From positions 34,266,265-34,330,264 of the forward strand of contig NC_133232.1 in assembly GCF_040436345.1 (NCBI RefSeq): DNA of 64,000 bases. Direction: 5' to 3'. The position numbers and the translations under genes are program-made. Under the pieces are notes generated by a model that was not told the origin of the DNA, ran no database searches, and saw only the letters and a program-made list of their open reading frames with translations. Source of the stretch: Pagrus major (Eukaryota; Chordata; Actinopteri; Spariformes; Sparidae). This document shows positions 5,115-50,426 of this stretch, piece by piece (positions within the stretch are counted from its first letter, which is position 1; the number at the start of each line of letters is the position of its first letter).

Positions 5115-5195
5115 CCGCTGCGCTCATCCCCCACCACCATCTTGAGATTAGCGCGTAGTTGAAGCCGTCAAGTATCAGCTCGCCGTTATCCCAAA

Positions 5196-6107
5196 ATGAG
5201 TGACCAGCTCTGTAAACTCTTCGTCGGTGGCCTCAACGTGGACACTGACGACGATGGCCTGCGCAAGCACTTCGAGCAGTACGGGACGCTCACCGACTGC
5301 GTCGTCGTCGTGAACAAGCAGCTGCAGCGGTCCCGCTGCTTCGGCTTTGTGACCTACTCGTCGCCAGAGGAGGCCGACGCAGCAATGGCGGCCAGGCCCC
5401 ACACCGTCGACGGCAACGCGGTCGAGGTGAAACGCGCCGTGGCGAGAGAAGACGCCAACAAGCCAGAGGCGCTCGCTAAGGTGAAGAAGATCTTCGTCGG
5501 AGGCCTGAAAGACGACATCGAGGAGGACCATCTGAGCGAGTACTTCTCCCAGTACGGCGAGATCGAGAAGGCCGAAGTCATCTCGGAGAAGGAGACCGGA
5601 AAGAAAAGAGGCTTCGGCTTTGTTTACTTCACCGATCACGATGCGGCCGACAAGGCGGTGGTGGTCAAATTCCACACCGTCAATGGACACAAAGTTGAGG
5701 TGAAGAAAGCCCTGACGAAGCAGGAGATGCAGGCAGCCAACAGAACCGGTATGGCGCCGAGAGGTAGGCCGGGAAGAGGCATGAGGGGGAATCAAAATGG
5801 CTACGGCAGCAGGGACTACGGCGGAAACTACAACTACGGAAATGGCGGAGGAGGCTACAACTGTGGCGGCTACGGAGGGTACGGCGGACCATATGGGGGT
5901 GGCTACGGAGACCAGGGAAGTGGCTATGGAGGTGGAAACGGCTACAATGAGTTCGGTAGCGGCTACGGCCAGCATTCTTCTGGCTACGGCCCCATGAAAG
6001 GGCCACCCTTCGGCGGTCAGAGGAGCGCAGCACCCTACACCAGAGGCGGCGGCGGCGGTGGCGGCGGCGGCTACCCCAGGGGGGGCTATGGCGGCGGCGG
6101 CTACTAA
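5196..6107 (+). CDS. hnrnpa0: hnRNP A0-like RNA-binding protein, tandem paralogue 1 (intronless)
   Basis: A 303-residue single-exon protein, as in vertebrate HNRNPA0, a nuclear/cytoplasmic protein that binds AU-rich mRNA elements. RRM1 spans about residues 7-82 (RNP2 LFVGGL, RNP1 RCFGFVTY). RRM2 spans about 98-175 (RNP2 KIFVGGL, RNP1 KRGFGFVYF). A Gly/Tyr-rich tail follows from about 195 and contains the family motif GYGPMK, which lies in the transport/M9-like region, and ends in poly-Gly. The start is fixed by homology ([12 protein letters not shown] against MENSQLCKLFIGG in human, from memory). At the position of human Ser84, the reported MAPKAPK-2 target, this protein has Ala83 (RAVARED). 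A TATA box lies 82 nt upstream. The GC-rich CDS stands out from its AT-rich surroundings and throws long antisense shadow frames. The a/b paralogue suffix cannot be decided from this window. Confidence 0.93.
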
Positions 6108-11566: not shown

Positions 11567-11679
11567 CAGCGACTAATACGTCTTACGAAAGCAAGTAAGT
11601 CAAACGGCCCGCCCTGACGTAGTCCATTGAAGAAGAAGGACGGTCTCGCAGCGAAACCATCCTCAGAAGAAATACGGTC

Positions 11680-12618
11680 ATGTCGACTACACTGACCAAG
11701 CTTTTTGTCGGGGGGCTCAACGTGTTGACCACGGAAGATGGGGTCCGCAAGCACTTCGAGCAGTTCGGCACGCTCAGCGACTGCGTCGTGGTCATGAACC
11801 AGCAACTCGGACGTTCCCGCTGTTTCGGCTTCATCACTTACTCAACGCCGGAGGAGGCCGACGCAGCAATGGCGGCTAACCCACATGTCGTCGAAGGCCA
11901 CGACGTGGAGCTGAAGAGGGCCATATCGCGGGAGGACGCCAACAACCCGGACATCCTCGCCAACGTCAAGAAGATTTTCGTCGGCGGTGTGAAAGACCAC
12001 GTCGAGGCGGAGAACCTGACCGAGTACTTCTCGCAGTTCGGCGTGGTGGAGAAGGCCGAGATCATCTCTGACAAGCAGACGGGCAGGAAGAGAGGCTTCG
12101 GCTTTGTCTTCTTCGAGGACAACGACTCCGCCACCAAAGCGGCGCTCACCCGGTTTCACACCATCAACGGCAACAAGGTGGAGGTGAAGAAGGCTCTGAC
12201 CAAGCAGGAGATGTCCACCGGCGGCCGGGGAGGACGAGGTCGCGGCAGAGGGATGAACAACTATGGCGGCGGAAGAGGAGGCGGCGGTGGCTACGGAGGC
12301 GGCTACGGCGGCGGTTACGGAGGAGGCGGCGGCTACGGAGGAGGCGGCTACAGCGGCGGCTACAACAACGGCGGCGGCGGCGGCGGAGGATACGGCGGCG
12401 GATACGGGGGATACGAAGAGTACGACAACCAGATGGGGGGTGGGTACAGCAATGGTGACTTTGGGGACGGGTACGGACAGCAGCACTCTAGTTATGGTGC
12501 AATGAAGGGGGGCAACTATTCCTACAGGAGCGGGGCTCCCTATAACAGAGGCGGCGGCGGAGGAGGCGGCGGCGGCGGCGGCTACGGCAGAGGCGGCGGA
12601 TACAGCGGCGGCTATTAA
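11680..12618 (+). CDS. hnrnpa0: hnRNP A0-like RNA-binding protein, tandem paralogue 2 (intronless)
   Basis: A 312-residue single-exon protein. RRM1 spans about residues 7-82 (LFVGGL / RCFGFITY) and RRM2 about 98-175 (KIFVGGV / KRGFGFVFF). An RG-rich linker (GRGGRGRGRG, near 190) leads to a Gly/Tyr-rich tail with SSYGAMK and a poly-Gly end. It is clearly related to the gene at 5196 over its whole length, with the same orientation and gene structure, so the two form a tandem pair about 5.6 kb apart. It keeps Ser83 in RAISRED, the equivalent of the MK2-phosphorylated Ser84 of human HNRNPA0, where paralogue 1 has Ala. The start is the first ATG, supported by alignment with paralogue 1. Expected role: nuclear and cytoplasmic binding of AU-rich mRNA and splicing control. 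Confidence 0.93.
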   Translation: MSTTLTKLFVGGLNVLTTEDGVRKHFEQFGTLSDCVVVMNQQLGRSRCFGFITYSTPEEADAAMAANPHVVEGHDVELKRAISREDANNPDILANVKKIFVGGVKDHVEAENLTEYFSQFGVVEKAEIISDKQTGRKRGFGFVFFEDNDSATKAALTRFHTINGNKVEVKKALTKQEMSTGGRGGRGRGRGMNNYGGGRGGGGGYGGGYGGGYGGGGGYGGGGYSGGYNNGGGGGGGYGGGYGGYEEYDNQMGGGYSNGDFGDGYGQQHSSYGAMKGGNYSYRSGAPYNRGGGGGGGGGGGYGRGGGYSGGY

Positions 12619-15863: not shown

Positions 15864-34118
<18,255 letters not shown>

Positions 34119-38620: not shown

Positions 38621-39089
38621 CAACTAACAAATTATGATTATAGGTTGAGATCAGAGTCAGATCTGTGGAAGCGCTTTTCCTACTGTACTCAGCCCAGGGT
38701 GACAGAATTGTTTGCCTCTGCAATTTTGCCCCGCAGGCTAAGATAACTGTCACACTGATATATATTTAAACCTAGAGCGTGCTGGTACATGATACACCCC
38801 CGACAACAGTTTGATTAAGCTACTTAAACTTCTTTGCTTGTGAAGCCCATGGCACACTGATCAAACAAAACAGCTGACCAAGCTTCAACATGACCTCAGA
38901 GTGAGAGTGAAGAGGATATGTACGTTAATTTACAGACACTGTGTACTGTTGTGTTTAAAAGTGGCAAGACATCTTCAAATACACAAGAAATATTTTTTTT
39001 TAAATCTGGGGCAAGGAGTGGTTATTAACCCTTCCAGTGACTGATGGTCACCAAAAACCAAATTCTTATGACGGTTTTTTTTTTGTTCA

Positions 39090-39710
39090 GTTTTACACCT
39101 GATAAAATATGAGGGAAAAGTCAAAAAAGACATTTCACGCCATTTTTTCCCCTCAAATTTTCTCTTAGAAATGTGACTTTTTTCGCCATTTTTTCTCAAA
39201 ATTCTGACTTTCCCCAAAAAAGTTTCTCCTCAAAGTTCTGACTTTTTTTCCTCAAATTTTCTCTCAAAATTTTGACTTTCCCCCCCAAAAGTTACTCCTC
39301 AAAATTTTGACTTTATTCCCAAAATTCTGACTTTTTTTTGCCTAAACTTTTTCTGAAAATTTTAACTTCTCCCTCAAATTTTCTCTTAAAATTGTGACTG
39401 TTTTCATATTTTTTTCTCAAAATTCTGACTTTTGTTTAAAAACAATTCTCAAATTTCTGACTTTTTTTTGCCAATTTTTTTCCTCAAAATTCTAACTTCC
39501 CCCCAAAAAGATTCTCCTCAAAATCCAGACTTTTTCTGCCTAAACTTTTTCTGAAAATTTAAACTTCTCCCTCAAATTTTCTCTTAAACTTTTGACTGAC
39601 TTTTTTCCCTCAGCTTTTTCTCAAAAGTTTGAAACAAAACTCAAAATTTTCAGAAAAAGTTGAGGGGAAAAAAGTCAGAATTGTGAGGAAAAACTTTTGG
39701 GGGTGTTATG
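39090..39710. repeat. Degenerate tandem repeat related to the satellite, mainly inverted
   Basis: About a dozen irregular copies of a 30-60 bp motif of the form 'ttctgactttttt.cc.caaa.ttt.ctc' run from 39110 to about 39640. From about 39640 to 39705 the reverse-complement form ('ttttcagaaaaagttgagg', 'aaaagtcagaattgtgagg') appears, so the end is a fold-back. The direct form is the same sequence that occurs in every satellite unit after 42040 ('gtcaggattttcagaaaaag'). Confidence 0.7.
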
Positions 39711-39774
39711 ACGCTGAGTCATTATTGTGTTTGTATTTGCTGCTGATTTTGTCTCTCCTCCTAAGTGTGTGTGT

Positions 39775-39777
39775 AAC

Positions 39778-39826
<49 letters not shown>
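39775..39826. repeat. (TG)n microsatellite
   Basis: About 24 TG units immediately left of the solitary satellite core. Confidence 0.95.
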
Positions 39827-39827
<1 letters not shown>

Positions 39828-39837
39828 CTGATTGTGA

Positions 39838-40075
39838 GCAGGCTGGACCTGCTGATTGGCTTGCTCAGCTTGATTGCTGACACAGGATTGGTCAGAGGAA
39901 GGAGAGGAGCCCTTTTTGAAGCGCCAGCTGACTGCAATCTCCATCTCCACCAACCTTCCACTTCCAACATGGACCAGTGTCTAGTCTGACTCCTGTTTTG
40001 TTTGTGATGTACACCAGTTGTGAGTAACTCAGCTGCAGTACAATCTGGTACTTTGTAAATAGACAACCAGTGTGT
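39838..40075. repeat. Solitary satellite core copy, left of cfap20-like gene
   Basis: From 'caggctggacctgctgattgg' (39839) to 'tctagtctgactcctgttttg' it matches the core of the array units. It then continues into 'acaccagttgtgagtaactc...ggtactttgtaaat', a tail otherwise present only at the right end of the array (49876-49926). It is therefore the left member of a direct repeat flanking the cfap20-like gene and the whole array. Confidence 0.85.
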
Positions 40076-40214
40076 TAGCATAGTAGGAGGGAGAAGCCGG
40101 GCCTTCATTCTAGTAGTAGGTATCTGGATTATTGTGAATATCCCGGTTATTTGGCTCGTATTGATACTGTCGTCTTTAAAATACAGCACGCATTGAAATT
40201 AAGGACAAAAAAAC

Positions 40215-40296: not shown

Positions 40297-41378
40297 CTAC
40301 TGCTGCAAGAGACAAACACAAAAACAGACAGGGGGGTAAGACAAGGTAATGTGGTGTTATAAGTAAATGCAGTGATGTGTGTGTGTGGATGTGTGTGTTT
40401 CACCTTGGCTTTCTGGCTCTGGACAGGCAGGCGGAGTTTAAACTCTGCTGGGAGCTCGTCCTCAGAGTACAGTCTGTCTGAGAAATACACTCTCCTTATC
40501 CGACAGTTAGCGTGGATCTGAGAGGAAAACAGCAGGTCAGACATCAGCAGCTGAAAGAGAGTACAGTCAGGGTTGTAGCTGGTTTCTAATCCGTCTCTGT
40601 GCACTGACCTGGACACGCAGCGTCTCAACGTAATTGGTCCCATAGGCCCTCCTGGTGAAGTCCGACAGGTCGAACTGAATCTGGTTCCAGCCGTCGTCCA
40701 GCTTCATTGGCAAGGTGCAGAGCAACGGGTCCACTCGCGTCGTGCTTCGGTAGGTACTCAACCGAAACCGTCTGCAAATGTTTTTATCATCTAGCACCTG
40801 AAAGTTTAAAGATGGGAGAATATGTCCACTTTACTTGTTTATACCACCAAAACACGGAACAGGTCGGCATCTGTGAGAGTGAATATACCCTACCTCGACT
40901 TCAAAGGTGAAATACTTCTTCACATTCTTGACGATCATCACAAGAATGGGAAGCTTGATGCCCAGTGTCTTCTTGGGGTCTGCAGGACATGTTATGTAGG
41001 TGGTACTACAGAGACGAGAAGAGATGAGGGTGCTTTAATGAGTTGCCCTGAGCTGAAGAATCAGTTCAACAGACAACAAACTCACCAGACGTTTGCCCCC
41101 TCGACCTCCAACACCTGGGAGCGGATGTCATTGTCTGTGACTCTCTGGATGTGACCATTTCTCACCTGTGTACACACAGAAAATTATGTATATAAAGGCT
41201 GCGCAGTCAATCGAAATATAGTTAGTTAGCTTTAGCACGACCAGCTAAGGAAGCTTGATAAGCTTCATAGCATCCACTCTGAATCGCTGCTTACCTTTTC
41301 ATCCCATATCTGAAGCGGTTTGCTGCCGATGCTGTAGAAAATAGACAAGAATCTGCCTTGAAATGTGTTTTTAAACAT
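40297..41378 (-). CDS. cfap20: CFAP20-like cilia and flagella associated protein, complete, six exons
   Basis: Exons on the - strand: 41378-41295, 41165-41086, 41005-40894, 40797-40609, 40517-40404, 40302-40297. All introns are GT/AG and in phase. The product has 194 residues (human 193). It starts [13 protein letters not shown], contains the DUF667 family body ([40 protein letters not shown]) and ends KAKQ like human CFAP20. The family forms inner-junction and centriole/axoneme structures that control tubulin modification and ciliary beat. Against the human sequence as I remember it, about 30 residues differ (roughly 84% identity), many in one central stretch ([21 protein letters not shown]). 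That is low for an almost invariant protein. Human CFAP20 is not near KLHL3. I infer a diverged duplicate in a new location; retained introns exclude a retrocopy. Confidence 0.9.
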
Positions 41379-41438: not shown

Positions 41439-41497
41439 AGGTTAGCAACAGATTTAGTTCGTAAACACCGTTTACGAACTAAATCTGTTGCTAACCT
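41439..41497. repeat. Perfect 28-bp inverted repeat upstream of cfap20-like start
   Basis: 41439-41466 and 41470-41497 are exact reverse complements around the 3-nt spacer 'acc'. The dyad lies 61 nt upstream of the cfap20-like ATG, so it is in the 5' UTR or core promoter. Each arm contains the RFX half-site GTTGC. A further 'gttgctaaggaac' X-box-like motif follows at 41511-41523. Confidence 0.9.
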
Positions 41498-41669: not shown

Positions 41670-42039
41670 TAATTTAATAATAAAACCCAAATCTTCAATA
41701 TGAGGGCTCATTTAGTGGTTTGGACACTAATGAATGTGTCACATTGTCACATTCGTCAAATTTAAGTGACTTGCTCAAGACGAACGTATATCAGGGGTGT
41801 GTTAAATAGCAGCTAAATAGCTTAAGATTTTTTAACAATAAACTTTATTTACAAAAGCCATAATGTTACAGTTACAGTTTTTCGGGCAAATAAAAATTGG
41901 ATTTGTATTTATTTTGTATCTGCATGTAGGCAGAGATGACCATTGCATTCATCTTGGTTAAATAATTGTGACTGCAAATTTCCACAAAAGTTGGCCAAAA
42001 TACGTTGAAACATATTATTTACTGTAATTTTACATTTGT
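41670..42039. other. Unique AT-rich DNA between cfap20-like gene and array
   Basis: No gene or repeat is recognised. Confidence 0.35.
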
Positions 42040-45000
42040 CTTGGGTTCCCCTAGACCAGTGGTGTGACGGGGGGGGGGGAGTCAGGATTTTCAGAAAAAG
42101 TTGAAAAAAGTCAGAATTTTGAGGAGAAACTTTTTGGGGGTAATAAAAGTTGGAAATTTAAGAGAGTTTGAAACCAAAGATGGAGTTTTGTTTTTTCTGA
42201 AAAGTAACTTTTTCTGAAAAGTAACTTTTTCTGAAGAGTAACTTTTTCTGAAAAGGTAACTTTTTCTGAAAAGGTAACTTTTTTGAAAAGTAACTTTTTG
42301 AAAGGTAACTTTTTCTAAAAAGTAACTTTTTCTGAAGAGTAACTTTTTATGAAAAGTAACTTTTTCTGAAAAGTAACGTTATCTGAAAAGTAACTTTTTC
42401 TGAAAAAAGTTACTTTAGTAAAAAGAAATTCAGGGAAGTGCATCAGGCTGGACCTGCTGATTGGCTTGCTCAAGCTTGATTGCTGACACAGGATTGGTCA
42501 GAGGAAGGAGAGGAGCCCTTTTTGAAGCGCCAGCTGACTGCAATCTCCATCTCCACCAACCTTCCACTTCCAACATGGACCAGTGTCTAGTCTGACTCGT
42601 GTTTTGTTTGTGATGTATACTGAATAAACTGATTAAACCGATGTAGGAGTAAGATTTTGTCTTTTGTTTATATTTCTGATTTGTGGCAGGAAGTTAGGGG
42701 TAAACAGATTATGTTGTTTGTTGTGTTGGCCTTGTTCTCCCTCTGAAGCAAAATAAATGCTACTTTGAACGTGGCTCCTCTGTGACACTGGCTTTCTTTT
42801 GGGGGTGGAAAGAATGGGGAGACACACATCATGGTATGTCTTGGGTTCCCCTAGACCAGTGGTGTGACGGGGGAAAGTCAGGATTTTCAGAAAAAGTTGA
42901 AAAAAGTCGGGATTTTGAGGATAAACTTTTTGGGGGTAATAAAAGTTGGACATTTAAGAGAGTTTGAAAACAAAGTTGGAATTTTGTTTTTCTGAAAAGT
43001 AACTTTTTCTGGAAAGGTAACTTTTTCTGAAAAGTAACTTTTTCTGAAAAGTAACTTTTTCTAAAAAGTAATTTTATCTGAAAAGTAACTTTTTCTGAAG
43101 AGTAACTTTTTCTGAAAAGTAACTTTTTCTGAAACTGAAGAGTAACTTTTTCTGAAAAGTAACTTTTTCTGAAAAGTAACTTTTTCTGAAAAAAGTTACT
43201 TTAGTAAAAAGAAATTCAGGGAAGTGCATCAGGCTGGACCTGCTGATTGGCTTGCTCAGCTTGATTGCTGACACAGGATTGGTCAGAGGAAGGAGAGGAG
43301 CCCTTTTTGAAGCGCCAGCTGACTGCAATCTCCATCTCCACCAACCTTCCACTTCCAACATGGACCAGTGTCTAGTCTGACTCGTGTTTTGTTTGTGATG
43401 TATACTGAATAAACTGATTAAACCGATGTAGGAGTAAGATTTTGTCTTTTGTTTATATTTCTGATTTGTGGCAGGAAGTTAGGGGTAAACAGATTATGTT
43501 GTTTGTTGTGTTGGCCTTGTTCTCCCTCTGAAGCAAAATAAATGCTACTTTGAACGTGGCTCCTCTGAGACACTGGCTTTCTTTTGGGGGTGGAAAGAAT
43601 GGGGAGACACACATCATGGTATGTCTTGGGTTCCCCTAGACCAGTGGTGTGACGGGGGAAAGTCAGGATTTTCAGAAAAAGTTGAAAAAAGTCGGGATTT
43701 TGGGGGAAAGTCAGAATTTTGAGGAGAAACTTTTTTGGGGGAATAAAAGTTGGAAATTTAAGAGAGTTTGAAACCAAAGTTGGATTTGTTTTCCCTGAAA
43801 AGTAACTTTTTCTAAAAAGTAACTTTTTCTGGAAAGTAACTTTTTCTGGAAAGTAACTTTTTCTGAAAAGTAACTTTTATTGAAAAGTAACTTTTTCTAA
43901 AAAGTAACTTTTTCTGAAGAGTAACTTTTTATGAAAAGTAACTTTTTCTGAAGAGTAACTTTCTGAAAAAAGTTACTTTAGTAAAAAGAAATTCAGGGAA
44001 GTGCATCAGGCTGGACCTGCTGATTGGCTTGCTCAGCTTGATTGCTGACACAGGATTGGTCAGAGGAAGGAGAGGAGCCCTTTTTGAAGCGCCAGCTGAC
44101 TGCAATCTCCATCTCCACCGACCTTCCACTTCCAACATGGACCAGTGTCTAGTCTGACTCCTGTTTTGTTTGTGATGTGTACTGAATAAACTGATTAAAC
44201 CGATGTAGGAGTTGGGTAAGATTTTGTCATTTGTTTATATTTCTGATTTGTGGCAGGAAGTTAGGGGTAAACAGATTATGTTGTTTGTTGTGTTGGCCTT
44301 GTTCTCCCTCTGAAGCAAAATAAATGCTACTTTGAACGTGGCTCCTCTGTGACACTGGCTTTCTTTTGGGGGTGGAAAGAATGGGGAGACACACATCATG
44401 GTATGTCTTGGGTTCCCCTAGACCAGTGGTGTGACGGGGGGGGGAGTCAGGATTTTCAGAAAAAGTTGAAAAAAGTCGGGATTTTGAGGAGAAACTTTTT
44501 GGGGGTAATAAAAGTTGGACATTTAAGAGAGTTTGAAACCAAAGTTGGAATTTTGTTATTTCTGAAAGGTAACTTTTTCTGGAAAGTAACTTTTTCTGGA
44601 AAGTAACTTTTACTGAAAAGTAACTTTTTCTAAAAAGTAACTTTTTCTGGAAAGTAACTTTTTCTGAAAATTAACTTTTTCTGAAGAGTAACTTTTTCTG
44701 AAAAGTAACTTTTTCTGAAGAGTAACTTTTTCTGAAAAGTAACTTTTTCTGAAAAGTAACTTTTTCTGAAGAGTAACTTTTTCTGAAAAGTAACTTTTTC
44801 TGAAGAGTAACTTTTTCTGAAAAAAGTTATTTTAGTAAAAAGAGATTCAGGGAAGTGCATCAGGCTGGACCTGCTGATTGGCTTGCTCAGCTTGATTGCT
44901 GACACAGGATTGGTCAGAGGAAGGAGAGGAACCCTTTTTGAAGCGCCAGCTGACTGCAATCTCCATCTCCACCAACCTTCCACTTCCAACATGGACCAGT

Positions 45001-48000
45001 GTCTAGTCTGACTCATGTTTTGTTTGTGATGTATACTGAATAAATTGATTAAACCGATGTAGGAGTTGGGTAAGATTTTGTCTTTTGTTTATATTTCTGA
45101 TTTGTGGCAGGAAGTTAGGGGTAAACAGATTATGTTGTTTGTTGTGTTGGCCTTGTTCTCCCTCTGAAGCAAAATAAAAGCTACTTTGAACGTGGCTCCT
45201 CTGTGACACTGGCTTTCTTTTGGGGGTGGAAAGAATGGGGAGACACACATCATGGTATGTCTTGGGTTCCCCTAGACCAGTGGTGTGACGGGGGAAAGTC
45301 AGGATTTTCAGAAAAAGTTGAAAAAAGTCAGAATTTTGGGGGAAAGTCAGAATTTTGAGGAGAAACTTTTTTGGGGGAATAAAAGTTGGAAATTTAAGAG
45401 AGTTTGAAACCAAAGTTGGATTTGTTTTCCCTGAAAAGTAACTTTTTCTAAAAAGTAACTTTTTCTGGAAAGTAACTTTTTCTGGAAAGTAACTTTTTCT
45501 GAAAAGTAACTTTTATTGAAAAGTAACTTTTTCTAAAAAGTAACTTTTTCTGAAGAGTAACTTTTTATGAAAAGTAACTTTTTCTGAAGAGTAACTTTCT
45601 GAAAAAAGTTACTTTAGTAAAAAGAAATTCAGGGAAGTGCATCAGGCTGGACCTGCTGATTGGCTTGCTCAGCTTGATTGCTGACACAGGATTGGTCAGA
45701 GGAAGGAGAGGAGCCCTTTTTGAAGCGCCAGCTGACTGCAATCTCCATCTCCACCAACCTTCCACTTCCAACATGGACCAGTGTCTAGTCTGACTCATGT
45801 TTTGTTTGTGATGTATACTGAATAAACTGATTAAACCGATGTAGGAGTTGGGTAAGATTTTGTCATTTGTTTATATTTCTGATTTGTGGCAGGAAGTTAG
45901 GGGTAAACAGATTATGTTGTTTGTTGTGTTGGCCTTGTTCTCCCTCTGAAGCAAAATAAAAGCTACTTTGAACGTGGCTCCTCTGTGACACTGGCTTTCT
46001 TTTGGGGGTGGAAAGAATGGGGAGACACACATCATGGTATGTCTTGGGTTCCCCTAGACCAGTGGTGTGACGGGGGGGGAAAGTCAGGATTTTCAGAAAA
46101 AGTTGAAAAAAGTCAGAATTTTGGGGGAAAGTCAGAATTTTGAGGAGAAACTTTTTTGGGGGAATAAAAGTTGGAAATTTAAGAGAGTTTGAAACCAAAG
46201 TTGGATTTGTTTTCCCTGAAAAGTAACTTTTTCTAAAAAGTAACTTTTTCTGGAAAGTAACTTTTTCTGGAAAGTAACTTTTTCTGAAAAGTAACTTTTA
46301 TTGAAAAGTAACTTTTTCTAAAAAGTAACTTTTTCTGAAGAGTAACTTTTTATGAAAAGTAACTTTTTCTGAAGAGTAACTTTCTGAAAAAAGTTACTTT
46401 AGTAAAAAGAAATTCAGGGAAGTGCATCAGGCTGGACCTGCTGATTGGCTTGCTCAGCTTGATTGCTGACACAGGATTGGTCAGAGGAAGGAGAGGAGCC
46501 CTTTTTGAAGCGCCAGCTGACTGCAATCTCCATCTCCACCGACCTTCCACTTCCAACATGGACCAGTGTCTAGTCTGACTCCTGTTTTGTTTGTGATGTG
46601 TACTGAATAAACTGATTAAACCGATGTAGGAGTTGGGTAAGATTTTGTTTTTTGTTTATATTTCTGATTTGTGGCAGGAAGTTAGGGGTAAACAGATTAT
46701 GTTGTTTGTTGTGTTGGCCTTGTTCTCCCTCTGAAGCAAAATAAATGCTACTTTGAACATGGCTCCTCTGTGACACTGGCTCTCTTTTGGGGGTGGAAAG
46801 AATGGGGAGACACACATCATGGTATGTCTTGGGTTCCCCTAGACCAGTGGTGTGACGGGGGGGGAAAAGTCAGGATTTTCAGAAAAAGTTGAAAAAAGTC
46901 GGGATTTTGAGGAGAAACTTTTTGGGGGTAATAAAAGTTGGACATTTAAGAGAGTTTGAAACCAAAGTTGGAATTTTGTTATTTCTGAAAGGTAACTTTT
47001 TCTGGAAAGTAACTTTTTCTGGAAAGTAACTTTTACTGAAAAGTAACTTTTTCTAAAAAGTAACTTTTTCTGGAAAGTAACTTTTTCTGAAAATTAACTT
47101 TTTCTGAAGAGTAACTTTTTCTGAAAAGTAACTTTTTCTGAAGAGTAACTTTTTCTGAAAAGTAACTTTTTCTGAAAAGTAACTTTTTCTGAAGAGTAAC
47201 TTTTTCTGAAAAGTAACTTTTTCTGAAAAGTAACTTTTTCTGAAAAAAGTTACTTTAGTAAAAAGAAATTCAGGGAAGTGCATCAGGCTGGACCTGCTGA
47301 TTGGCTTGCTCAGCTTGATTGCTGACACAGGATTGGTCAGAGGAAGGAGAGGAACCCTTTTTGAAGCGCCAGCTGACTGCAATCTCCATCTCCACCAACC
47401 TTCCACTTCCAACATGGACCAGTGTCTAGTCTGACTCATGTTTTGTTTGTGATGTATACTGAATAAATTGATTAAACCGATGTAGGAGTTGGGTAAGATT
47501 TTGTCTTTTGTTTATATTTCTGATTTGTGGCAGGAAGTTAGGGGTAAACAGATTATGTTGTTTGTTGTGTTGGCCTTGTTCTCCCTCTGAAGCAAAATAA
47601 AAGCTACTTTGAACGTGGCTCCTCTGTGACACTGGCTTTCTTTTGGGGGTGGAAAGAATGGGGAGACACACATCATGGTATGTCTTGGGTTCCCCTAGAC
47701 CAGTGGTGTGACGGGGGAAAGTCAGGATTTTCAGAAAAAGTTGAAAAAAGTCAGAATTTTGGGGGAAAGTCAGAATTTTGAGGAGAAACTTTTTTGGGGG
47801 AATAAAAGTTGGAAATTTAAGAGAGTTTGAAACCAAAGTTGGATTTGTTTTCCCTGAAAAGTAACTTTTTCTAAAAAGTAACTTTTTCTGGAAAGTAACT
47901 TTTTCTGGAAAGTAACTTTTTCTGAAAAGTAACTTTTATTGAAAAGTAACTTTTTCTAAAAAGTAACTTTTTCTGAAGAGTAACTTTTTATGAAAAGTAA

Positions 48001-49940
48001 CTTTTTCTGAAGAGTAACTTTCTGAAAAAAGTTACTTTAGTAAAAAGAAATTCAGGGAAGTGCATCAGGCTGGACCTGCTGATTGGCTTGCTCAGCTTGA
48101 TTGCTGACACAGGATTGGTCAGAGGAAGGAGAGGAGCCCTTTTTGAAGCGCCAGCTGACTGCAATCTCCATCTCCACCAACCTTCCACTTCCAACATGGA
48201 CCAGTGTCTAGTCTGACTCATGTTTTGTTTGTGATGTATACTGAATAAACTGATTAAACCGATGTAGGAGTTGGGTAAGATTTTGTCATTTGTTTATATT
48301 TCTGTTTTGTGGCAGGAAGTTAGGGGTAAACAGATTATGTTGTTTGTTGTGTTGGCCTTGTTCTCCCTCTGAAGCAAAATAAAAGCTACTTTGAACGTGG
48401 CTCCTCTGTGACACTGGCTTTCTTTTGGGGGTGGAAAGAATGGGGAGACACACATCATGGTATGTCTTGGGTTCCCCTAGACCAGTGGTGTGACGGGGGG
48501 GGAGTCAGGATTTTCAGAAAAAGTTGAAAAAAGTCAGAATTTTGGGGGAAAGTCAGAATTTTGAGGAGAAACTTTTTTGGGGGAATAAAAGTTGGAAATT
48601 TAAGAGAGTTTGAAACCAAAGTTGGATTTGTTTTCCCTGAAAAGTAACTTTTTCTAAAAAGTAACTTTTTCTGGAAAGTAACTTTTTCTGGAAAGTAACT
48701 TTTTCTGAAAAGTAACTTTTATTGAAAAGTAACTTTTTCTAAAAAGTAACTTTTTCTGAAGAGTAACTTTTTATGAAAAGTAACTTTTTCTGAAGAGTAA
48801 CTTTCTGAAAAAAGTTACTTTAGTAAAAAGAAATTCAGGGAAGTGCATCAGGCTGGACCTGCTGATTGGCTTGCTCAGCTTGATTGCTGACACAGGATTG
48901 GTCAGAGGAAGGAGAGGAGCCCTTTTTGAAGCGCCAGCTGACTGCAATCTCCATCTCCACCGACCTTCCACTTCCAACATGGACCAGTGTCTAGTCTGAC
49001 TCCTGTTTTGTTTGTGATGTGTACTGAATAAACTGATTAAACCGATGTAGGAGTCGGGTAAGATTTTGTTTTTTGTTTATATTTCTGATTTGTGGCAGGA
49101 AGTTAGGGGTAAACAGATTATGTTGTTTGTTGTGTTGGCCTTGTTCTCCCTCTGAAGCAAAATAAATGCTACTTTGAACGTGGCTCCTCTGTGACACTGG
49201 CTCTCTTTTGGGGGTGGAAAGAATGGGGAGACACACATCATGGTATGTCTTGGGTTCCCCTAGACCAGTGGTGTGACGGGGGGGGAAAAGTCAGGATTTT
49301 CAGAAAAAGTTTTAAAAAGTCGGGATTTTGAGGAGAAACTTTTTGGGGGTAATAAAAGTTGGACATTTAAGAGAGTTTGAAACCAAAGTTGGAATTTTGT
49401 TATTTCTGAAAGGTAACTTTTTCTGGAAAGTAACTTTTTCTGGAAAGTAACTTTTACTGAAAAGTAACTTTTTCTAAAAAGTAACTTTTTCTGGAAAGTA
49501 ACTTTTTCTGAAAATTAACTTTTTCTGAAGAGTAACTTTTTCTGAAAAGTAACTTTTTCTGAAGAGTAACTTTTTCTGAAAAGTAACTTTTTCTGAAAAG
49601 TAACTTTTTCTGAAGAGTAACTTTTTCTGAAAAGTAACTTTTTCTGAAAAGTAACTTTTTCTGAAAAAAGTTACTTTAGTAAAAAGAAATTCAGGGAAGT
49701 GCATCAGGCTGGACCTGCTGATTGGCTTGCTCAGCTTGATTGCTGACACAGGATTGGTCAGAGGAAGGAGAGGAGCCCTTTTTGAAGCGCCAGCTGACTG
49801 CAATCTCCATCTCCACCAACCTTCCACTTCCAACATGGACCAGTGTCTAGTCTGACTCCTGTTTTGTTTGTGATACACACCAGTTGTGAGTAACTCAGCT
49901 GCAGTACAATCTGGTACTTTGTAAATGAGACAGTGTGTTG
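42040..49940. repeat. Satellite array with trimeric higher-order repeat
   Basis: Ten copies of a core beginning 'caggctggacctgctgattgg' start at 42444, 43230, 44007, 44861, 45643, 46428, 47284, 48066, 48849 and 49705. Spacings are 786, 777, 854, 782, 785, 856, 782, 783 and 856, so every third unit is about 70 bp longer. The period of the trimer is 2421-2423 bp. Diagnostic variants repeat with it, for example 'ccaccgacc' and 'gtgtactg' only in the 44007, 46428 and 48849 copies. Each unit comprises a ~330-bp core with two ATTGG boxes and two AATAAA motifs, a 'gtgtgacggggg'/'gtcaggattttcag' segment, a block of 17-bp subrepeats (consensus 'tctgaaaagtaactttt') and a closing hairpin. Open frames on the - strand are by-products. 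Confidence 0.93.
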
Positions 49941-50426
49941 AAACATTCTGAACAATGTTTTTTTTTCACTCTTTTTCAAATGATAAAGGAAAAAAAAATC
50001 TCCTGAAAAAAGTTTTTCCTGAAAATTTTTTTCTTTCACTCGGCTTCAAACCTGAATTATTTTTTTTTTGTTGAGTTTGACACCTGGAAAAAAGTTTCTT
50101 CACTGGGCTTCACACATGGAAAAAGTTTTTCTTCTCACATATTTTCACAGGTGGAAAAAGAATTAAGGAAGTTAATTTAGAAAGATTATCCTAAAAAACT
50201 AACATGAACAGGAGAAAAACTATGTGGATCAGACTTAGAAAATGGATTGAACTGAATATTGAATATTGTAGTAAAAGATGTAACTCAGTAAGTGTAAATA
50301 TGCAGTAATTACTTCAAAATATTCATTTATTTTTAACATTTAGTAACATCGTCACACCACGCGCTGTGAACAGTTTAGTTCATTTGACTCAAGAAGCAGG
50401 AGAACTGATATGGCAAGCTTGTAAAG
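49941..50426. other. Spacer between array and fam13b 3' end
   Basis: A- and T-rich sequence with satellite-like fragments ('cctgaaaaaagtttttcctgaaaa', about 50001-50030), then unique DNA. No gene is recognised. Confidence 0.4.

Follow-up and report, generated by a model that had tools for sequence, protein, structure and literature searches.

In the higher-order repeats (HORs) of alpha satellite, monomers fall into position-specific types that are thought to be homogenized by exchange or conversion (PMC9549924). Outside centromeres, NBPF trimeric HORs (Olduvai triplets) are described on human chromosome 1, with a monomer of ~1.6 kb and a trimer of ~4.77 kb; NBPF20 trimer copies differ by ~1%, and NBPF monomers diverge by 17–19% (PMC9584774). 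Plant Cassandra elements are described as forming tandem LTR arrays of at least 12 copies (PMC7215508), and a review connects short euchromatic satellite arrays with transposable elements (PMC10048060). Because non-centromeric HORs, hybrid monomers and satellites derived from transposable elements are already known, the array described here is a further example of known phenomena; what is unusual is its clear record of the birth of an HOR. The transition from array to HOR is usually inferred from huge, homogenized centromeres. At this locus, ten units can be compared with a sister array that has no trimer and with a single-copy relative at a distance of 2 kb, so that the steps can be ordered. 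In a limited literature search, we found no LTR-derived HOR named in a teleost.

The window that we analyzed is a 64,000-nucleotide stretch of Pagrus major contig NC_133232.1 (features are given in window coordinates, on the plus strand unless stated). Between positions 42039 and 49876, unit alignment delimits ten head-to-tail units, nine of 782–856 bp and a last one that stops at 629 bp, in the order U1, U2, C, A, B, C, A, B, C, A′. The ten ~0.8-kb units of the original prediction are borne out, with core-anchor spacings (786/777/855/781/785/856/782/783/856) at most 1 bp from those listed earlier. Its array end at 49940 is not, as the array proper stops at 49876 and 49877–49939 is leftover LTR sequence, in common with 40011–40076. 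Two divergent edge units, U1 (42039–42838, 800 bp) and the A-like U2 (42839–43623, 785 bp), lie outside the 2.42-kb trimer, which spans units 3–10 (C-A-B-C-A-B-C-A′). U3 (43624–44405, 782 bp) is type C and has the B/C state at 14 of 14 derived left-part events. The first trimer consists of U4 (type A, 44406–45259, 854 bp), U5 (type B, 45260–46041) and U6 (type C, 46042–46826) and the second of U7 (type A, 46827–47682, 856 bp), U8 (type B, 47683–48464) and U9 (type C, 48465–49247). The truncated U10 (49248–49876) is type A in its left part at 30/30 diagnostic events.

Monomer types recur in a fixed order across units 3–10, and units at the same position are more alike than neighbors. Same-position pairs differ by 4 (U4/U7), 1 (U5/U8), 4 (U6/U9) and 6 (U7/U10) substitutions, compared with 27–35 between A (U4, U7) and B or C (U5, U6, U8, U9) and 8–11 between B and C; other pairs reach 35 substitutions plus large indels. 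The trimeric organization that had been proposed is supported. The three-unit period holds in units 3–10 (start-to-start distances of 2418 bp for U3–U6, 2421 for U4–U7, 2423 for U5–U8 and U6–U9, and 2421 for U7–U10), but not for U1 or U2, which differ from every other unit by at least 22 and at least 15 substitutions, respectively. Similarly, whole units cluster by trimer position as anticipated, but B and C are not separated in the left part and B joins A in the right part with modest support. The two trimers differ by 9 substitutions and 2 indels in 2419 bp. Chance is excluded because the period-17 arrays within units have TRF scores of 273–460 and whole units are 94–99.9% identical. Like NBPF, this is a non-centromeric trimeric HOR whose trimer copies differ much less from each other than do the monomers of a single trimer; however, NBPF monomers carry gene exons (PMC9584774), whereas these 94–99.9% identical monomers are LTR-derived, with no coding function found.

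The earlier reading missed the nature of the unit, which is an LTR-derived composite. Judged from the sequence, each 0.8-kb unit is shown to comprise an LTR piece, an AG-rich repeat block and a 17-bp minisatellite, the last with 15.6 copies in U7 (46982–47246, TRF) and 9.9 copies in the B and C units U3, U5, U6, U8 and U9. The LTR piece is without its 5′ part and ~100 internal bases, and the resulting junction is identical in both arrays. One example of the LTR-derived stretch, at 47284–47712, includes core, tail and LTR 3′ end, with the LTR 3′ end forming the first 30 bp of the following unit. A solo, non-arrayed LTR-like copy at 39704–40098, which retains the 5′ part (388 of 650 positions), lies 2 kb from the array, beyond cfap20. 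Among 40 scored matches, no other single-copy sequence is as closely related to the units. Its 172-bp core recurs without change in V2, V4, V5, V7, V8 and V10 of the sister array and, except at the last two bases, in U10. Adjoining this copy is a TC/AG-rich repeat with approximate limits of 39085–39703 (no strand assigned). This repeat and the AG-rich unit heads are related, and it contains single 17-mer-like motifs at 39348 and 39546.

Elsewhere in the genome, the LTR family is represented by 19 dispersed copies of 84–91% identity among 40 scored of 109 candidates, and the tail is likewise dispersed (22 of 40 scored of 85 candidates). In a tree with 16 dispersed copies, the 20 array cores group with the window LTR copy in a single clade (100% support), and four states common to that clade are absent from those 16. 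Identification of the element as an LTR rests on its ends and on short flanking repeats. Copies start with TGTTATGAC and end with CGTAACA, or variants of these (at most 4 mismatches over 19 bases), although the last bases vary by copy, and TG...CA ends are common to copies with different flanks. Of 16 dispersed copies fetched, 13 have an identifiable start and 13 an identifiable end; in the 10 with both, these lie 613–685 bp apart. Exact 4-bp flanking repeats occur at two of five independent sites, CTAC at the related copies L015–L020 and TGTG at L021; the other three (L012, L025 and L026) have no clear flanking repeat, and some dispersed copies are embedded in larger repeats. No gag-pol region was found at the same-strand LTR pairs L035 and L036 or in four protein stretches near L027, of which Pfam matched one to reverse transcriptase, below the cut-off, and one to a DDE endonuclease. 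The L035 and L036 pairs are duplicated repeat-rich blocks and were rejected as proviruses. We also rejected a hAT element, since the CAGTGGTGTGACG motif corresponds to the LTR end; a near match to it at 50350 is within chance (1.17 expected per window at ≤2 mismatches). Exact-pattern scans of viral contigs gave 0 matches.

Cassandra arrays resemble this one in being tandem arrays from an LTR-bearing element, but their LTRs alternate with an internal domain (PMC7215508), whereas here a deleted LTR piece alternates with the AG-rich block and 17-bp minisatellite. No internal domain was recognized between the LTR pieces, and an LTR-internal-LTR array was rejected because the tail of dispersed copies sits within the element, before its 3′ end. 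Short satellite arrays of euchromatin, as reviewed in PMC10048060, share shortness, location and a link to transposable elements, to which the present array adds a higher-order level with a traceable origin.

The repeat is not locus-specific, a matter that the original prediction had proposed to settle by genome search: the same contig carries, 0.9 Mb away, a sister array of ten units (V1–V10) that lacks the trimer. A 34-bp pattern of 17-mer dimers has 21 exact matches in the 785.9-Mb assembly, every one of them in the two arrays, and, among the matches listed, full-length unit heads (83–100% identity) are likewise found only there. A larger segmental duplication joining both sites was rejected, as only LTR and AG/TC-rich sequence matched outside the arrays (E 1e-8). 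Variants at core columns 87, 171 and 189 are common to both arrays.

How did three unit types arise? On sequence evidence, shared variants show type B to be C-like on the left and A-like on the right. B agrees with C at 30/30 A/C-diagnostic events in the left part and with A at 6/8 in the right part (Fisher p=1e-5), and a breakpoint permutation over all sites gave 0/20000. With derived states alone, defined as those not seen in V1–V10, U1 or U2, with U3 and U10 set aside, the permutation is weaker (357/20000, p about 0.018): B and C share 14 derived states, all in the left part, A and B share 2, both in the right part, and A and C share 0. Across the left part (alignment columns 35–440), U5, U6 and U8 show 0 differences and U9 shows 2. 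In the right part, A and B group with 60% and 70% tree support in two analyses, but B is no nearer to A (3–6 substitutions) than to U3, also typed C (4–5), and B follows A at 4/6 events if the C state is required in U3 as well. Two right-part sites, 549 and 663, agree with C instead; the first may be situated to the left of the switch, and the second seems to be a variant confined to A. In 2 more events, B differs from a state common to A and C. The switch from C-like to A-like falls within 45713–45797 in U5 and 48136–48220 in U8, intervals that presuppose that the A-type variant at core column 87 was already present; its presence in V9 suggests that it predated the switch.

Our preferred reading, to which we assign a probability of roughly 0.73, is that this is a small LTR-derived satellite in which one exchange between A and C units made the trimer, which was later duplicated, and that the array itself is functionless. 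An LTR piece would have become part of a composite unit, of which A and C variants then arose. An A-C pair mispaired by one unit could have undergone exchange inside the LTR core, yielding A-(C/A)-C, that is A-B-C, in one step. A further out-of-register exchange would have duplicated the 2.42-kb trimer, with U1 and U2 remaining as older edge units. Since the three-copy pattern made by exchange was then copied, the birth of the HOR would be readable in ten units. Unequal exchange, invoked earlier for the amplification, finds support, and the trimer-making exchange can now be localized. The array would also be a vertebrate case in which a fragment of an LTR gave rise to a satellite near genes.

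It is also possible, if rather unlikely, that B and C are simple tandem duplicates and that gene conversion by A later overwrote the right part of B, so that the trimer has two causes. The left 0.4 kb does not separate B from C, the right part of B is also close to that of U3, tracts of a few hundred bases would yield the same mosaic, and the variants common to both arrays could themselves reflect conversion. However, this account needs two events where one suffices, and the A-like sites of B begin at core column 130 and continue, interrupted only at column 201, as far as 371, close to where the unit ends. Error in the assembly, such that the number or order of trimers is wrong, is less probable still. 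Near-identical 2.4-kb copies tend to collapse or expand, but long reads can cover an array of 7.8 kb, and the units are marked by differences specific to a type or private to one unit, even if a single base separates the two B copies. A second, differently arranged array was also assembled.

Could the units act on their neighbors? Two ATTGG boxes 32 bp apart are present in 17/17 non-array copies and TTTGAA in 9/17, and AATAAA can be read in the tail of aligned copies. Two CCAAT-type boxes with a CHR-like TTTGAA form an arrangement known from G2/M cell-cycle promoters. If each unit still carried an LTR promoter core with these boxes and TTTGAA, and AATAAA signals downstream, one could picture the units as a ten-fold cluster of cell-cycle-phased LTR promoters whose copy number sets local transcription, a proposal to which we give little credence. 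If true, it would place putative LTR promoters 0.66 kb upstream of cfap20 and aimed at the 3′ end of the FAM13 gene.

The idea that a centromere-type satellite spread along the chromosome left this array as a relic, or grew from it as a seed, is very improbable. The predicted likeness to alpha satellite holds for organization only. Hybrid monomers, part of one fused to part of another, occur in alpha satellite too, but there the monomers are ~171 bp and form large centromeric arrays (PMC9549924). Here, 0.8-kb units form ~8-kb arrays, and the two ten-unit arrays among the matches listed, to which the 17-mer dimers and full-length unit heads are confined, are both near ordinary genes. A minus-strand coding or protein-repeat gene is barely credible, for although long stop-free frames recur (45003–45512 and 47426–47935 are identical over 169 amino acids), the one frame scanned with Pfam (45003–45512) gave no match, 17 bp, the length of the inner repeat, is not divisible by three, and indels of 2 bp and 5 bp distinguish units. 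A structured RNA was rejected as well, since the window contains no Rfam family at gathering score and no tRNA gene by ARAGORN.

The array had been placed between klhl3 and fam13b. A FAM13 gene is indeed one of its two nearest genes, but the immediate left neighbor is cfap20 (minus strand, start codon at 41376–41378, 0.66 kb from the array), with klhl3 farther left. We infer that the array, lying between cfap20 and the FAM13 gene, consists of tandem DNA of a selfish or neutral kind. A 10-bp GTTGAAACAT to the left of the array (42004–42013) is repeated to its right (49937–49946); a 10-mer in common was obtained in 184/200000 random draws, or 648 with wider stretches.

Ten units (U1–U10) make up the array, their starts anchored by an anchor search at 42039, 42839, 43624, 44406, 45260, 46042, 46827, 47683, 48465 and 49248; we set its end at 49876, where the match of U10 to the other units stops. 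Pairwise comparison assigns U4, U7 and U10 to type A, U5 and U8 to type B, and U3, U6 and U9 to type C, with edge units U1 and U2 divergent. Spacings of the conserved core are within 1 bp of those in the original prediction, and the trimer period it claimed, 2421–2423 bp, holds from U4 on, although U3 to U6 measures 2418 bp. The two complete trimers differ by 9 substitutions and 2 indels over 2419 aligned bases.

How did the trimer arise? In the left part of the unit, U5, U6 and U8 show no differences and U9 shows two, and all four are far from type A (23–26 substitutions and 5–6 indels versus U4 and U7). Over the right part, B differs from A by 3–6 substitutions and from U6 and U9 by 8–9, but from U3 by only 4–5. 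Types A (U4, U7) and C (U6, U9) are distinguished by 38 events, at which B agrees with C in 30/30 on the left and with A in 6/8 on the right (p = 1e-5), the latter becoming 4/6 if U3 is required to share the C state. When events were polarized against a pool of U1, U2 and the ten units of a sister array, the 14 derived events common to B and C all lay on the left, the two common to A and B both lay on the right (core columns 171 and 335), and none was common to A and C; without polarity, there are two events at which A and C agree and B differs. The observed breakpoint was reached in 0/20000 permutations using all events in order and in 357/20000 using derived events alone, and two right-part trees join A and B at 60% and 70% support.

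In the simplest history, an A-C pair would have mispaired by one unit, one exchange within the LTR-like core would have yielded A-(C/A)-C, and the trimer would have been duplicated afterward. We put the probability of this history at roughly three in four, a value lowered slightly after the right part was rechecked with U3. The closeness of B to U3 in that part also speaks for a rival, gene conversion as the source of the B mosaic. Under the exchange history, the switch in U5 would fall between 45713 and 45797 if the A-type variant of core column 87, also present in sister-array unit V9, is old. U10 is type A on the left at 30/30 events; because its core equals that of a solitary LTR-like copy save for the last two bases, U10 may also change type, upstream of column 87.

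The sister array (C18:35222585-35230152) has ten units, spaced 790, 763, 754, 729, 761, 816, 746, 746 and 855 bp; two adjacent units are identical, and no three-unit pattern was seen among the ten. A-type units differ from sister units V3 and V5 by 16–19 substitutions versus 29–37 from their own B and C neighbors, and some variants are common to both arrays, which argues that the unit types predate separation of the arrays or that sequence passed between them. The assembly contains 21 occurrences of a 34-bp pattern representing a dimer of the 17-bp minisatellite repeat, 17 in the window array and 4 in its sister (reversed control, 0 in the assembly). Outside the arrays, the window and 41 kb around the sister array have only LTR and AG/TC-rich sequence in common (E 1e-8). 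The sister array has an ORF of the alcohol-dehydrogenase type nearby.

Core and tail are dispersed through the genome; the original prediction had proposed to check whether the core is locus-specific, and it is not. The 40 core matches scored among 109 candidates comprised ten in each array, one at 39.8 kb and 19 elsewhere (84–91% identity); 40 tail matches scored among 85 comprised 18 array copies and 22 others. Of the 19 dispersed copies of the core, we retrieved 16 and aligned 12 of these with the window copies. In the aligned copies, the element starts with TGTTATGAC or a variant, followed by a GT run, the core, ~100 bp and a tail containing AATAAA; its end is near CCCCTAGACCAGGGGCGTAACA. 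A start could be placed in 13/16 copies, an end in 13/16 and both in 10/16, in which they lie 613–685 bp apart. Because of the shared ends, this span and exact 4-bp flanking repeats at 2/5 independent sites, we call the element LTR-like. Array units are missing its 5′ part and the ~100 bp between core and tail, a deletion that leaves core-tail spacing equal across both arrays, and their LTR end continues into an AG-rich block and then the 17-mer array. Over parts of its length, the AG-rich block is similar (72–91%) to AG/TC repeats on several other contigs. A repeat of this type, with single 17-mer-like motifs, also adjoins the solitary window copy (39704-40098). Among the scored matches, this copy is the closest non-array relative (97% over 238 bp versus the array end); it and all 20 array cores form a single clade at 100% support and have four states in common that none of the 16 dispersed copies carries.

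Tandem repeats repeatedly accompany LTR-like copies in this genome. Five copies on five contigs (L016–L020; C19, C14, C6, C3 and C24) lie within a larger repeat, 97.5–99% identical to the L016 copy over ~2 kb, that seems to have spread recently; minisatellites follow near the C19 copy. L035 (C21) and L036 (C1) each contain two copies inside duplicated repeat-rich blocks, 86–87% identical. On C23 (about 24528000-24538700), many AG-rich repeats related to the unit head occur on both strands.

On either side of the array, at 42004 and 49937, stands a copy of the 10-bp direct repeat GTTGAAACAT. A common 10-mer arose in 184/200000 random draws of same-size stretches and 648/200000 of wider ones, but as the flanking stretches were picked after the match was seen, the repeat is only a hint that a founding segment was inserted.

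The kinds of feature combined here are already described: published accounts report non-centromeric trimeric higher-order repeats in NBPF (PMC9584774), hybrid monomers in alpha satellite (PMC9549924), tandem LTR-element arrays in Cassandra (PMC7215508) and short TE-linked arrays in euchromatin (PMC10048060). The value of the window array is that the order of events can be read.

Could the core have a function? Two ATTGG boxes lie exactly 32 bp apart in 17/17 non-array copies (16 dispersed plus the window's), and TTTGAA is present in 9/17. The full pattern, picked after the core was seen, occurs 11 times in the window (ten units and the solitary copy) versus 0.01 expected. In G2/M promoters, CCAAT-type boxes typically stand some 32 bp apart. 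One account describes cooperation of CCAAT and CDE-CHR elements in such promoters (PMC7793273). We take the array to be neutral.

The original prediction placed the array between klhl3 and fam13b. A kelch ORF matching KLHL3 among other kelch proteins does lie to the left, but further away than cfap20, whose start codon, read off the sequence at 41376-41378, is 0.66 kb from the array. The minus-strand ORF at 40567-40830 matches the CFA20 domain (E 5e-29) and CFAP20 chains in solved axonemes. On the right, we take the protein encoded near 54.1–54.4 kb (minus strand) to be a FAM13 C terminus; three other ORFs around it had no Pfam match. Gene content and size suggest a teleost genome. Upstream of cfap20, about 60 bp from its start codon, is a perfect inverted repeat (41439-41497; 28-bp arms, 3-bp spacer). 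A 546-codon plus-strand open frame (29074-30711), presumably piggyBac-type, matches DDE_Tnp_1_7 over the full profile (E 9e-75) and sits between the klhl3 BTB and kelch ORFs, probably in an intron. Finally, plus-strand ORFs at 5163-6107 and 11623-12618, which we assume to be hnrnpa0, each encode two RRM stretches and a glycine-rich tail and, at 76% DNA identity over 516 bp, look like neighboring paralogues.
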